This document shows positions 7,024 through 12,564 of a stretch of 33,749 nt of DNA, in pieces. Source of the stretch: Rubrivivax sp. SCN 70-15 (GTDB taxonomy: Bacteria; Pseudomonadota; Gammaproteobacteria; Burkholderiales; Burkholderiaceae_C). Each line of letters starts with the position of its first letter. The stretch's first letter is position 1. Position numbers and translations under genes: made by a program. The notes beneath the pieces are model-generated. The model saw only the letters and a list, made by a program, of their open reading frames with translations, was not told the origin of the DNA and made no database searches. The stretch is from assembly GCA_001725505.1 (NCBI GenBank), contig MEGM01000093.1, positions 1 to 33,749 on the forward strand, in the 5' to 3' direction.

Positions 7024-7581
7024 TCAGCCGTGCAGCCGGCTGCTGCGCGGCACCGACGCGAGCAGGAAGTCCATCTGGTCGGCCAGGATGCGCCGGCCGC
7101 GCAGGATCATGTCCTCGTGCAGGCTGGGCACGTACGGCAGGTAGAGCAGGCTCATGCGTGCCTCCTCGGGCATCCGGCTGCCCTTGCGCCCGTTGCAGCC
7201 GCGGCAGGCGGTGATGCAGTTCATCCAGCTGTCGGCGCCACCGCGCGAGACCGGTCGGATGTGCTCGCGCGTCAGCTCGTCGAAATGGAAATGCCCGCCG
7301 CAATAGGCGCAGACATGGCGGTCGCGCACGAACAGCTTGGGGTTGCTCAGCGCCGGCGTCTGGCGCCAGGCGCGCGTGGGCACCGCGCCGCGCACCGCGA
7401 CGATCGGGTGCACCTCGATGCGCGACTGCAGCCCGGTCGTGCGCTGGATGCCGCCGCGCAGCACCTGGAACGCATGGCCCAGCGTCCACGCGACGCTGTC
7501 GCTGGCATACAGCAGCGCAGCCTCCTTGGCCGTGATCCAGGCCTGCGGGCGCCCGGAAACATCGAGTTGCAGCACGTCCAT
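7024..7581 (-). CDS. HNH endonuclease family protein
   Basis: This encodes 185 residues. The HNH core lies in the middle. LFVRDRHVCAYCG provides the first CxxC zinc pair, FDELTREHIRPVSRGGADSW carries the catalytic DE-H segment, the N of MNCITACRGCNGRKG the following Asn, and CRGC the second zinc pair. The N-terminal third (residues 1-75) is a conserved non-catalytic extension seen in stand-alone proteobacterial HNH proteins. The ATG at 7581 has AGGAG about 8 nt upstream. It is divergent from the protease-FHA pair, 81 nt away. There is no associated restriction methylase or phage terminase nearby, so the role is unknown. The same frame runs open for a further 1.4 kb upstream, but that is antisense to the protease gene. 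Confidence 0.92.
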   Translation of the reverse strand: MDVLQLDVSGRPQAWITAKEAALLYASDSVAWTLGHAFQVLRGGIQRTTGLQSRIEVHPIVAVRGAVPTRAWRQTPALSNPKLFVRDRHVCAYCGGHFHFDELTREHIRPVSRGGADSWMNCITACRGCNGRKGSRMPEEARMSLLYLPYVPSLHEDMILRGRRILADQMDFLLASVPRSSRLHG

Positions 7582-7651
7582 CGAACGTTCTCCTGCACAA
7601 AGGATACCAAGACGACGATGACCGCTGCCATCGCCGCCCCGGCGCTTCGAT

Positions 7652-7662: not shown

Positions 7663-9018
7663 ATGCTGTCGATCGAGCGCTGTCGGCCGGCCCTGATCGG
7701 GGCCGGTCTCGTTTTCTGGGCCGCTCTCGCGGCCGCAGCGGCGGCCCCCGCGTTGCTGCCGCAGGCGCCCGCCGCCAGCGCGACCGACGGCAGCCAGCGC
7801 GCCTTCGCCGGCGCGCGCGAGAAGCTGCTCCAGGTGCGCACGCTGCTGCGCGGACAGGACAGCCAGGCCTCGGTCGGCTCGGCTTTCCTCGTCAGCGACG
7901 ACGGCCTGCTCGTCACCAACTACCACGTCGTCAGCCAGTACGCGCTGCAGCCGGCGCAGTACCGGCTGGTGTTCGCCACCGCCGACGGCCGCCAGGGCGC
8001 GCTGCAGCTGCTCGACGTCGACGTCGTGCACGACCTCGCGTTGCTCAGGCCGGCCGATCCGGCGCTGCTCGCCGGTCGCGGCAAGCTCGAGTTCCGGCCG
8101 GCCTCGGAGCCGCTGCTTCGCGGCGAGCGGATCCGCTCGCTGGGCAACCCGCTCGACGTCGGCTTCGCCGTCGTCGAGGGCGCCTACAACGGCGTCGTCG
8201 AGCGCAGTTTCCTGCCGACGATCTTCTTCGGTGGTTCGCTCTCGGCGGGCATGAGCGGCGGCCCGGCGCTCGACGACCAGGGCCGCGTGGTCGGCATCAA
8301 CGTCGCGACCCGGCGCGACGGCGAGCAGGTCAGCTTCCTGGTGCCGGCATCGTTCGCGCAGGCGCTGCTGCAGCGCAGCCGCGACGCCAAGCCGGTCACC
8401 GAGCCGATGTACCCGCGCCTGGTCGCGCAGCTCCTCGTGCACCAGGACGCGCTGACGAAGGCCTTCCTCGCCCAGCCCTGGCGGCCGGCGGGCAACGCGC
8501 ATTACCGGATCCCGGTGCCGCAGGAACAGTTCATGCGCTGCTGGGGGCGCAGCACGCCGCCCGAGTCGCGCGGGCTGCAGTTCGAGCGCTCGGACTGCGC
8601 GATGGACAGCCGCATCTACATCAACGGCGCGCTGCTCACCGGTTACCTCGCCGTGCGCCACGAAGCCTACGACGGCCGGCGCATCGGCGAGCTGCGCTTC
8701 CTCGAGCGCTATTCGCAGAGCTTTCGCAACGAGTTCTTCGGCACCGGCAACCGCCAGCAGACGCCGCCGCAATGCGAGGAGCGCACCGTCGCCGGCGACG
8801 GCCTGCCGCTGCGCGCGGTGCTGTGCCTGCGGGCGTACAAGAAGCTCGTCGGCCTGTACGACATGAGCCTGCTCGTCGCGACGCTGGACGGCACCGAGAC
8901 CGGCGCGCAAGGCCGCTTCGACGTCTTCGGCGTCTCGTTCGACAACGCGCAGCGGCTGGCCGCGCATTACCTGGCCGGCTTCGGCGTCGTCGGTGCCGGC
9001 CGCAAGGGGGCGCCATGA
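7663..9018 (+). CDS. Trypsin-like serine protease (S1C-type), secreted, without PDZ domain
   Basis: This encodes 451 residues. A hydrophobic N-terminus (LIGAGLVFWAALAAAAAAP) is a signal peptide or anchor, placing the protease in the periplasm. The protease domain covers about residues 65-240 with a full triad: His88 in TNYHVV, Asp124 in VHDLALL, and Ser198 in GMSGGPALD. Residues 250-451 do not look like PDZ domains. They form an unfamiliar domain with several cysteines (Cys274, Cys287, Cys366, Cys387) that could be disulfide-bonded. The gene overlaps the following FHA gene by 4 nt (ATGA), so the two are translationally coupled. It resembles DegP/HtrA only in the catalytic domain, and its target is unknown. 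Confidence 0.9.
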   Translation: MLSIERCRPALIGAGLVFWAALAAAAAAPALLPQAPAASATDGSQRAFAGAREKLLQVRTLLRGQDSQASVGSAFLVSDDGLLVTNYHVVSQYALQPAQYRLVFATADGRQGALQLLDVDVVHDLALLRPADPALLAGRGKLEFRPASEPLLRGERIRSLGNPLDVGFAVVEGAYNGVVERSFLPTIFFGGSLSAGMSGGPALDDQGRVVGINVATRRDGEQVSFLVPASFAQALLQRSRDAKPVTEPMYPRLVAQLLVHQDALTKAFLAQPWRPAGNAHYRIPVPQEQFMRCWGRSTPPESRGLQFERSDCAMDSRIYINGALLTGYLAVRHEAYDGRRIGELRFLERYSQSFRNEFFGTGNRQQTPPQCEERTVAGDGLPLRAVLCLRAYKKLVGLYDMSLLVATLDGTETGAQGRFDVFGVSFDNAQRLAAHYLAGFGVVGAGRKGAP

Positions 9019-10004
9019 CGGCGCCGCTGGCCCTCGTCGAGCTGCTCGACCGCGACGGGCGCGTGCGCCGCGCGCTGCCGGTCACGAACTGGCCGTTGCG
9101 CATCGGGCGCGCGATCGACAACGACCTCGTGCTCGACGACCCGCACGTCGCGCCTTATCACGCGCGCATCGAGGCCGGCGACGACGGGCTGCCATGGCTC
9201 GTGGCCCTGCCGAGCGTGAACGGGGTCCAGGTCGGCCGGCGCCGGCTCGCTGCCGGCGAGCGCACCCGGCTCACCGGCGCCGACCTGGGCTGGACCGTCG
9301 GTACCGCGAGGCTGCGCGCGCGGCTGGCCGGCGAACCGCTCGCACCCGAGCGCGCGCTGCACGTCGAGACCGGGCAGGGCGCGACGATCGGGTTCGCGCT
9401 GGCGCTGTGGGCCTGGCAGCTGGCGGCGCAGGCGATCCGGCTCGACCCCGGCGCCAAGCTCACCGAATGGCTCGCGCCGCTGTTCGGCGTGCCGGCCAGC
9501 GTCGCCGGCTGGTGCCTGGCCTGGGCGCTCGCGTCCAAGCTGTTCCAGCAGCGCTTCGACTTCTGGGCGCATGTCGCGGTGGCGGTGCGCTTCCTGCTCG
9601 GCATCGAGGTCGCCGGGTTCGTGCTCGACGGCGTCGCTGCGGTCACCTCCTGGGACGCGCTGTCGCGCATCAGCGGCGGCGTCGAGGCGGCGATCGGCGT
9701 CGCGATGATCTGGGCCCATGCGCGCCTGGTGCTGCCGGGCCGCGCCCGCGCACTCGCGCTGTTCGCGACCGCGGCCTACGTCGTCGGCGCCGGCATCGTC
9801 GTGACGCAGAACCTGCAGCGCAACGACCGCGTCTTCACCGAGCTGTATTCGGCGACGCTGCCGCCGCCCGGGCTGCTCTGGGCGAAGCCGGTCGCACCCG
9901 AGGTCTTCGTGCGCGATGCCGCCGCGCTGCGCGAGCGCCTGGACCGCAGCGTGCGCGACGCGCAGGCCGAGCAGAAGGGCAGCGAGGCCGACGCCGGCGA
10001 CTGA
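9015..10004 (+). CDS. FHA-domain integral membrane protein
   Basis: This encodes 329 residues. Residues about 10-95 form an FHA domain. WPLRIGRAIDNDLVLDD is the phosphothreonine-loop signature with its conserved Gly-Arg, followed by HVAPYHARIE with the Ser/His region and VNGVQVGRRRL with the conserved Asn-Gly. From about residue 125 to 265 there are about five hydrophobic helices. The C-terminus (VFVRDAAALRERLDRSVRDA) is a charged, probably coiled segment. The FHA domain should lie in the cytoplasm and read threonine phosphorylation. Its start overlaps the stop of the protease gene (ATGA), which implies a common function: a cytoplasmic sensor partnered with a periplasmic protease. No kinase or phosphatase gene is visible nearby. 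Confidence 0.88.
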   Translation: MTAPLALVELLDRDGRVRRALPVTNWPLRIGRAIDNDLVLDDPHVAPYHARIEAGDDGLPWLVALPSVNGVQVGRRRLAAGERTRLTGADLGWTVGTARLRARLAGEPLAPERALHVETGQGATIGFALALWAWQLAAQAIRLDPGAKLTEWLAPLFGVPASVAGWCLAWALASKLFQQRFDFWAHVAVAVRFLLGIEVAGFVLDGVAAVTSWDALSRISGGVEAAIGVAMIWAHARLVLPGRARALALFATAAYVVGAGIVVTQNLQRNDRVFTELYSATLPPPGLLWAKPVAPEVFVRDAAALRERLDRSVRDAQAEQKGSEADAGD

Positions 10005-10106: not shown

Positions 10107-10128
10107 GATTCGCTCGGGTTTGCCATCC

Positions 10129-12564
10129 ATGACTGCTGCCGTCTCGCCCGCGCCCGCCGCGCCGCGCACCCTGCAAAAAGGGCAGCAGACGCGTGCCGCG
10201 ATCCTGGACGCCGCGCTCGGCCTGGCCTCGCACATGGGGCTCGAGGGCCTGTCGATCGGCGCGCTTGCCGAAGTCACGCGCATGAGCAAGTCCGGCGTCT
10301 TCGCCCATTTCGGCTCGCGCGAGGAACTGCAGATCTCGGTCGTGCGCGAGTACCACCGCCGCTTCGAGGACGAGGTGTTCTTCCCGGCGATGCGCGAGCC
10401 GCGCGGCCTGCCGCGGCTGCGCGCGCTGTTCGAGCGCTGGGTTCGCCGCGTCTCGCAGGAACTGGACTCGGGCTGCATCTACATCAGCGGCGCGGTCGAG
10501 TTCGATGACCGTCCCGGCCCGGTGCGCGACGCGCTGGCTTCGATGGTGCGCGCCTGGCAGCAGGCGCTCGAGCGCGCGATCGAGCAGGCGGTGGCCGAGG
10601 GCCATTTGCGCACCGACACCGACCCGGCACAGATGCTGTTCGAGATCCACGGCCTGATCCTCGCGCTGCACCACGACGCGCGCTTCCTGCGCAACCCCGG
10701 CGTCGTCGACCGCGCGCGCGCCGGCTTCGAGCGTGTCGTCGAGCATTACCAGGCGCCGGCGGCCGCCGTTCCCATGGCCCAGTACCACCCGCCGCTGCGC
10801 GACATGCAGTTCGTGCTGCACGAGCTGCTCGGCGCCGCCGACACGCTGAAGGCCTTGCCGCGCCACGCCGAGGTCGACGCCGAGACGATCAACGCGGTGC
10901 TCGAAGAAGCCGGCAAGTTCGCCGCCGGGGTCGTCTTCCCGCTCAACATCAGCGGCGACGAGGAGGGCTGCACCCTCGACAAGGCGACGCACGAGGTGCG
11001 CGCGCCCAAGGGCTTCAGGAAGGCCTACGCGAGCTACGTCGAGGGCGGCTGGCCGGCGCTGAGCTGCGACCCCGAATACGGCGGCCAGGGCCTGCCGATC
11101 GTGCTGAACCAGTGCCTGTTCGAGATGCTGAACTCGGCCAACCAGGCCTGGACGATGTACCCCGGCCTGTCGCACGGCGCCTACGAATGCCTGAAGGCGC
11201 ACGGCACCGACGAGCAGCGCCGCACCTACCTGCCCAAGCTGGTGAGCGGGGTCTGGACCGGCACGATGTGCCTGACCGAACCGCACTGCGGCACCGACCT
11301 CGGCCTGCTGCGCACCAAGGCGGAGCCGCAGCCCGACGGCCGCTACAAGCTCAGCGGCCAGAAGATCTTCATCTCGGCCGGCGAGCACGACCTGACCGAG
11401 AACATCGTCCACCTCGTGCTGGCCCGGTTGCCCGACGCGCCCGCTGGCAGCAAGGGCATCTCGCTCTTCGTCGTGCCCAAGTTCAGCGTCAACGCCGACG
11501 GCTCGCTGGGCGAGCGCAACGCGATCTTCTGCAGCGCGATCGAGCACAAGATGGGCATCCACGGCAACGCGACCTGCCAGATGATGCTCGACGGCGCGCT
11601 CGGCACGCTGGTCGGCGAGCCGCACCGCGGCCTGGCCGCGATGTTCGTGATGATGAACGCGGCGCGGCTGGGCGTGGGCAACCAGTCGCTCGGGCTGACC
11701 GAGGTCGCCTACCAGAATGCGGTCGCCTACGCGAAGGACCGCATCCAGATGCGCAGCCTGTCGGGCCCGAAGGCGAAGGACAAGCCGGCCGATCCGATCA
11801 TCGTCCACCCCGACGTGCGCAAGATGCTGCTCACCGCGCGCGCCTACGCCGAGGGCGGCCGTGCGCTCGCGATCTGGACCGCGCTGCAGATCGACCGGGA
11901 ACTCTCGAGCGACGACGAGGACGAACGCAAGGACGCTGCCGACCTGGTGGCGCTGATCACGCCGATCATCAAGGCCTTCCTCACCGACAACGGCTGGATC
12001 GCGACCTCGCACTGCATGCAGGTCTTCGGCGGCCACGGCTACATCCGTGAATGGGGCATGGAGCAGTACGTGCGCGACGCCCGCATCAACATGATCTACG
12101 AGGGCACGAACACGATCCAGTCGCTGGACCTGCTGGGGCGCAAGGTGCTGGCCGACAACGGCGCCAAGCTGAAGAAGTTCGGCAAGCTCGTCGCCGACTT
12201 CGTCGAGGCCGAAGGCGTGAACGAGGCGATGCAGGAGTTCGTCAACCCGCTCGCCGACCTCGGCGACAAGCTGACCAAGCTGACCACCGAACTCGGCATG
12301 AAGGCCTTCGCGAACCCCGACGAGGTGGGCGGCGCCGCGGTCGACTACCTGCGCGTCGCGGGCCACCTGGTCTTCGCCTACTTCTGGGCACGCATGGCCA
12401 AGGTCGCGCTCGACAAGCAGGCCTCGGGCGACCCGTTCTACACCGCCAAGCTGCACACCGCGCGCTTCTACTTCGCCAAGCTGCTGCCCGAGACCGCGGG
12501 GCTGATCCGCAGCGCGCGCGCCGGCGTCGCGCCGCTGCTCGCGATGGACGAAGCGCTGTTCTGA
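10129..12564 (+). CDS. TetR regulator fused in frame to an acyl-CoA dehydrogenase
   Basis: This encodes 811 residues in one uninterrupted frame. Residues 1-205 are a complete TetR protein: a helix-turn-helix at about 41-65 (LSIGALAEVTRMSKSGVFAH, then FGSREEL) and a helical ligand domain. A short Ala/Pro linker (QAPAAAVP) leads to Met216, where a complete 596-residue acyl-CoA dehydrogenase of the FadE/DmdC-like type begins with its usual MAQYHPPLRDMQFVLHEL. In that half I see the FAD-site segment CLTEPHCGTDLG, the catalytic Glu658 in MIYEGTNTIQ, and the long C-terminal extension. These are normally two adjacent genes. No Shine-Dalgarno precedes Met216 (nt 10774), though internal initiation cannot be excluded. 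I used the ATG at 10129; an in-frame TTG lies at 10120. It heads the beta-oxidation cluster. Confidence 0.9.
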   Translation: MTAAVSPAPAAPRTLQKGQQTRAAILDAALGLASHMGLEGLSIGALAEVTRMSKSGVFAHFGSREELQISVVREYHRRFEDEVFFPAMREPRGLPRLRALFERWVRRVSQELDSGCIYISGAVEFDDRPGPVRDALASMVRAWQQALERAIEQAVAEGHLRTDTDPAQMLFEIHGLILALHHDARFLRNPGVVDRARAGFERVVEHYQAPAAAVPMAQYHPPLRDMQFVLHELLGAADTLKALPRHAEVDAETINAVLEEAGKFAAGVVFPLNISGDEEGCTLDKATHEVRAPKGFRKAYASYVEGGWPALSCDPEYGGQGLPIVLNQCLFEMLNSANQAWTMYPGLSHGAYECLKAHGTDEQRRTYLPKLVSGVWTGTMCLTEPHCGTDLGLLRTKAEPQPDGRYKLSGQKIFISAGEHDLTENIVHLVLARLPDAPAGSKGISLFVVPKFSVNADGSLGERNAIFCSAIEHKMGIHGNATCQMMLDGALGTLVGEPHRGLAAMFVMMNAARLGVGNQSLGLTEVAYQNAVAYAKDRIQMRSLSGPKAKDKPADPIIVHPDVRKMLLTARAYAEGGRALAIWTALQIDRELSSDDEDERKDAADLVALITPIIKAFLTDNGWIATSHCMQVFGGHGYIREWGMEQYVRDARINMIYEGTNTIQSLDLLGRKVLADNGAKLKKFGKLVADFVEAEGVNEAMQEFVNPLADLGDKLTKLTTELGMKAFANPDEVGGAAVDYLRVAGHLVFAYFWARMAKVALDKQASGDPFYTAKLHTARFYFAKLLPETAGLIRSARAGVAPLLAMDEALF

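Follow-up and report, generated by a model that had tools for sequence, protein, structure and literature searches.

Proteases of the HtrA type usually carry their own means of control in the form of PDZ domains, sensors of misfolded periplasmic proteins. In MarP, a membrane-tethered protease of the periplasm, a trypsin-like part and a multi-helix membrane part are combined in one chain, and we know of no FHA domain in this protein. Five residues, Gly, Arg, Ser, His and Asn, are retained in the FHA domains that bind phosphothreonine in the canonical manner (PMC4238996). In the threonine phosphorylation pathway of the type VI secretion system (T6SS), the FHA protein Fha/TagH activates the envelope machine after Ser/Thr phosphorylation (PMC5995506), while the FHA fold of PrgH from the type III secretion system (T3SS) is regarded as phospho-independent (PMC3635987).

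The window analysed here, the whole stretch of 33,749 nucleotides from Rubrivivax sp. SCN 70-15, carries a two-gene locus in which a protease is joined to an FHA protein of the membrane. The protease gene (gene 1; 7663..9018, +) is an open reading frame of 451 aa encoding an exported trypsin-like (Trypsin_2/S1C) serine protease, and the FHA/membrane partner gene (gene 2; 9015..10004, +) is an open reading frame of 329 aa with an FHA domain (PF00498). The stop of gene 1 and the start of gene 2 overlap in ATGA (9015..9018, +), so that the translation of the two genes is probably coupled. The first-pass annotation, made from the sequence alone, had described a signal-bearing trypsin-like protease with an intact triad, no PDZ domain and a cysteine-bearing unknown C-terminal domain, overlapping by ATGA with an FHA protein of about five membrane helices. 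The open reading frames, Pfam, hydropathy and the AlphaFold models are in accordance with this description. The absence of a kinase nearby was also confirmed, as the contig of the window contains no Pkinase or PP2C match; elsewhere in the same genome 9 Pkinase and 2 PP2C_2 matches are found. Upstream of the pair, a terminator-like inverted repeat of 17 pairs (7606-7643, -) separates the protease gene from a divergent HNH endonuclease gene (about 7024-7581, -). Downstream, one open frame (10120-12564, +) encodes a TetR regulator fused to an acyl-CoA dehydrogenase; a stop codon parts the two in 20 relatives having both genes, and the fusion may be real or an assembly error. No plasmid carriage of the pair was found.

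The protease begins with a signal-peptide region and linker (residues 1-40; 7663..7782, +), read from the sequence and modelled with low confidence. A hydrophobic N-terminus precedes the protease domain in 61/66 distant homologues, many of them with A-x-A sites, and this export signal indicates that the protease is not cytoplasmic; the other distant homologues have N-termini with long Pro/Ala-rich linkers. The Trypsin_2 match spans residues 72-212 (Pfam PF13365, E=7e-24), and the Pfam scan revealed no PDZ domain. The catalytic triad of His88 (7924-7926, +), Asp124 (8032-8034, +) and Ser198 in GMSGGP (8254-8256, +) is invariant in an alignment of 56 diverse homologues. The AlphaFold model of the protease has a pLDDT of 89, and in a structure search the fold of its protease domain matched DegS delta-PDZ, Deg1 and HtrA1.

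The C-terminal domain (residues 245-441; 8395..8985, +) comprises about 195 aa and is delimited by a conserved alignment and a confident model, with a helix and antiparallel strands predicted. Its four cysteines, Cys293, Cys312, Cys371 and Cys388, are invariant in the same alignment; they would suit the oxidising periplasm and may be of the disulphide type. No Pfam family was matched in 25 members, bar two chance-level matches, and no PDB sequence match was obtained, so that a known family from Pfam, NCBIfam or PDB sequence was rejected for this domain. The whole-model fold search was dominated by the protease domain; the match to RsgI9 S1C-NTF2 covered more columns of the protease model but with an rmsd of about 17. 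Since the C-terminal domain occupies the position held by PDZ in HtrA proteins, it is likely a docking or control domain of the protease.

The partner carries at its N-terminus a cytoplasmic FHA domain (residues 6-106; 9030..9332, +), with a Pfam match at residues 29-87 (E=4e-9; 37.3 bits against a gathering cut-off of 20.7) and a fold that matched the FHA domains of GarA, OdhI, MDC1 and FhaA in the structure search. Family hydropathy, the positive-inside pattern and the model place five transmembrane helices at residues 122-142, 150-178, 183-211, 214-239 and 241-270 (9378..9824, +), and the AlphaFold model, with a pLDDT of 92, contains the same five helices. The family-average percentage of K+R along the loops and tail is 5.7, 13.9, 3.4, 18.5 and 7.8. 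This alternation of low and high values indicates an N-in/C-out partner with the FHA domain cytoplasmic and the tail periplasmic. The FHA domain and the protease are thus predicted, from the sequence and the model, to lie on opposite sides of the membrane, with the tail on the side of the protease. The predicted periplasmic tail (residues 271-329; 9825..10001, +) bears a Y..xL..P motif, which is also present in partners devoid of the FHA domain.

The association of the two genes was then followed across genomes. The pair is adjacent in all of the approximately 190 fetched loci of sufficient length, from roughly 35 families of Pseudomonadota, which rules out rare adjacency and bears out the co-occurrence that the first-pass annotation left to be searched for. 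In the GTDB genus of the window the protease lies directly upstream of the FHA relative in 29/29 loci (contig-edge loci excluded). Among 110 further loci, from genera including Rubrivivax, Aquincola, Methylibium, Ideonella, Piscinibacter, Caldimonas, Roseateles and Rhizobacter, the partner follows the protease immediately in 108, and the remaining 2 stop at a contig edge. The profile of the C-terminal domain matched 44/399 genomes of the order, including a broken fragment in G141 that was rejected as a real protease (a weak match of 33 aa with stops), and 24/369 genomes of the class sample; with the matches in additional classes of the phylum, the total comes to about 35 families. In every distant locus fetched the partner adjoins the protease, overlapping it or lying within about 140 bases.

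The reciprocal search was in agreement with this result. In the same 399 order genomes, full-length matches of the partner profile were obtained only where the protease is present, and no intact lone partner was found. G317 and G172 were dismissed as partners without a protease, which was found alongside on reading the DNA, and G325 and one G330 copy were dismissed as contig-edge fragments. G172 holds two copies of the pair (L218 and L219). Across the relatives and distant loci, no further gene accompanies the pair consistently. A fatty-acid oxidation cluster follows the pair in part of the genus and other neighbours are found elsewhere; the TetR, acyl-CoA dehydrogenase, DUF2147 and 3-HCDH neighbours were rejected as functional partners, being kept only in part of the genus and absent from the distant loci. 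The linked kinase or phosphatase genes expected in other genomes did not appear among the neighbours conserved across relatives.

The adjacency of protease and partner is far beyond chance and the pairing is obligate, which leads to the strong conclusion that the two proteins form a functional unit. An ordinary secreted HtrA-type housekeeping protease lying next to an unrelated membrane protein would account for the standard S1C fold of the protease domain. The conservation of the pair contradicts this explanation, since the two genes stay together across about 35 families while no other neighbour does; together with the lack of PDZ and the family-specific C-terminal domain, this makes it hardly credible. 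The reciprocal pairing excludes a neighbourhood due to chance or to housekeeping. The pair is thus obligate and widespread, and its proteins lie within the inner membrane or on opposite sides of it. No paper describing it was found in the open-access literature; the first-pass annotation likewise knew of no named system with this composition.

The reading we prefer, at a probability of about one in two, is that the pair is a dedicated trans-envelope proteolysis module in which the partner has the role of tether or gate for the protease, and the FHA domain that of a separable input. The five-helix partner would use its periplasmic tail and loops to tether and gate the protease, and a cytoplasmic ligand would dock at its FHA domain inside the cell. 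The ancestral ligand may have been a protein phosphorylated on threonine by an unlinked kinase, with phosphate recognition altered in the clade of the window by the change of Ser to Ala. Docking at the FHA domain would then change the activity or localisation of the protease across the membrane. A more specific form of this reading, that a phosphorylation signal of cytoplasmic Ser/Thr kinases, passed through the five-helix FHA protein, switches the dedicated periplasmic protease on or off as an undescribed, phylum-wide system, is tentative, with the odds leaning against it.

The residues of the FHA site bear on the nature of this input and on the alternatives. Gly31, Arg32, His49 and Asn69-Gly70 are kept in the window and conserved at 91-98% in 56 diverse members; Arg32, His49 and Asn69-Gly70, at 91-95%, rank with the most conserved positions of the partner. 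The retention of Arg and Asn speaks for the binding of some ligand by the FHA domain. The phosphate-contacting Ser is replaced by Ala46 (9150-9152) in the window and by Ala in 75/76 close relatives, and among the 56 diverse members this position holds Ala in 30, Ser in 17, Cys in 7 and an acidic residue in 2. The equivalent change of Ser to Ala in MupFHA (S55A) severely disrupted binding to the kinase PknQ (PMC4238996), and PrgH with Ala at the proposed phosphothreonine-site residues still supports normal secretion (PMC3635987). Given these precedents, reading of phosphothreonine is not to be assumed in the clade of the window, and that phosphothreonine is the cytoplasmic input of the window's own system is doubtful. 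Alternatively, the FHA domain may serve docking or oligomerisation independently of phosphorylation, as in PrgH/YscD, with the partner acting as a scaffold that positions the protease at the inner membrane and no Ser/Thr kinase signal involved. The Ala, Cys or acidic residue in 39/56 members, the normal secretion of PrgH and a weak Yop-YscD_cpl match favour this scaffold. The high conservation of Arg32, His49 and Asn69-Gly70, which a pure scaffold would not need, stands against it.

The kinase content of the genomes also cuts both ways. In family f199 the protease and the membrane part of the partner persist in 12/12 genomes, and in 6/12 the partner consists only of the membrane part and tail (197-266 aa; L207, L211, L214, L177, L215 and L216); the FHA site is degraded in other f199 genomes. 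Mapped onto the protease tree, the outright losses of FHA take at least three changes, and well-supported branches force two of these. Such losses, with the rest of the pair persisting, speak for a scaffold, but they fall in a kinase-poor family: 7/12 of the f199 genomes have no Pkinase match and 5/12 have one partial match of 40-53 bits, whereas Ser/Thr kinases are encoded in 38/38 tested pair-bearing genomes outside f199. This distribution fits a membrane-protease core able to function by itself, to which a cytoplasmic FHA would add an input dependent on kinases. The f39 lineage (L043, L044 and L047) is a counter-example: its two tested genomes encode 9-12 kinases, yet Arg, His and Asn-Gly of the FHA site are lost and the pair is kept. 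The link between kinases and FHA therefore rests essentially on one clade, and the degraded site in this kinase-rich lineage again favours the scaffold, which overall we consider on the unlikely side. A further alternative makes the partner a regulatory substrate whose periplasmic tail is cut by the protease, releasing or altering the FHA portion in an outside-to-inside manner similar to regulated intramembrane proteolysis. The conservation of the tail motif, even in FHA-less partners, and the predicted location of tail and protease on one side of the membrane would suit such cleavage. It is nevertheless improbable, because an inward signal via FHA would be pointless in the retained FHA-less partners and neither an intramembrane protease nor a transcription factor is kept in linkage with the pair.

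The first-pass annotation had suggested that the pair may link a kinase signal inside to proteolysis outside. A module for control across the membrane remains the natural reading, and it is the step of reading phosphothreonine that is weakened, by Ala46, by the dispensability of FHA in f199 and by its degradation in f39; the retained site residues, the kinases of the 38 genomes and the loss of FHA where kinases are scarce speak for that step. Joined inseparably to a cytoplasmic-FHA membrane protein, the PDZ-less protease would give inside-to-outside control of envelope proteolysis and, if this is true, a testable output for part of the large set of orphan Ser/Thr kinases in Pseudomonadota. The pair also defines two domains without curated families, the four-Cys C-terminal domain of the protease and the five-helix membrane domain, and it is present in cultured strains, such as Piscinibacter (Ideonella) sakaiensis 201-F6 and Aquincola tertiaricarbonis, and therefore directly testable.

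Comparison with known systems places the pair apart from each of them. The AVAST anti-phage protease Avs1b shares a trypsin-like domain, seen as a weak shared-domain match in 3/56 members, and differs in that no other gene is conserved next to the protease-partner pair. Fha/TagH resembles the partner as an FHA protein at an envelope system, but the partner scores 28 bits against a TIGR03354 cut-off of 120, and no T6SS genes or linked kinase or phosphatase are conserved near the pair. YscD/PrgH/MxiG of the T3SS inner ring are likewise inner-membrane proteins whose cytoplasmic N-terminus adopts the FHA fold, in many cases lacking a phosphothreonine site (PMC3635987). YscD/PrgH have a single transmembrane helix, a periplasmic ring domain and a T3SS locus, whereas the partner has five helices and no ring domain, scores 26.3 bits with Yop-YscD_cpl (PF16697; cut-off 33.2) and has no secretion genes conserved near the pair. 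MarP shows the same association of a trypsin-like protease with a multi-helix membrane part, though in the window these are two polypeptides and the score is 31 bits against a cut-off of 250. DegS, DegP and DegQ of the HtrA (Do) family share the periplasmic S1C trypsin-like domain with its His-Asp-Ser triad, and HtrA models are matched by all 56 protease members; the window protease lies far below the curated cut-offs (TIGR02037, 56 against 416 bits; TIGR02038, 41 against 423 bits). In place of the one or two C-terminal PDZ domains of that family, it has a unique four-Cys domain, and its regulator is a separate membrane protein.
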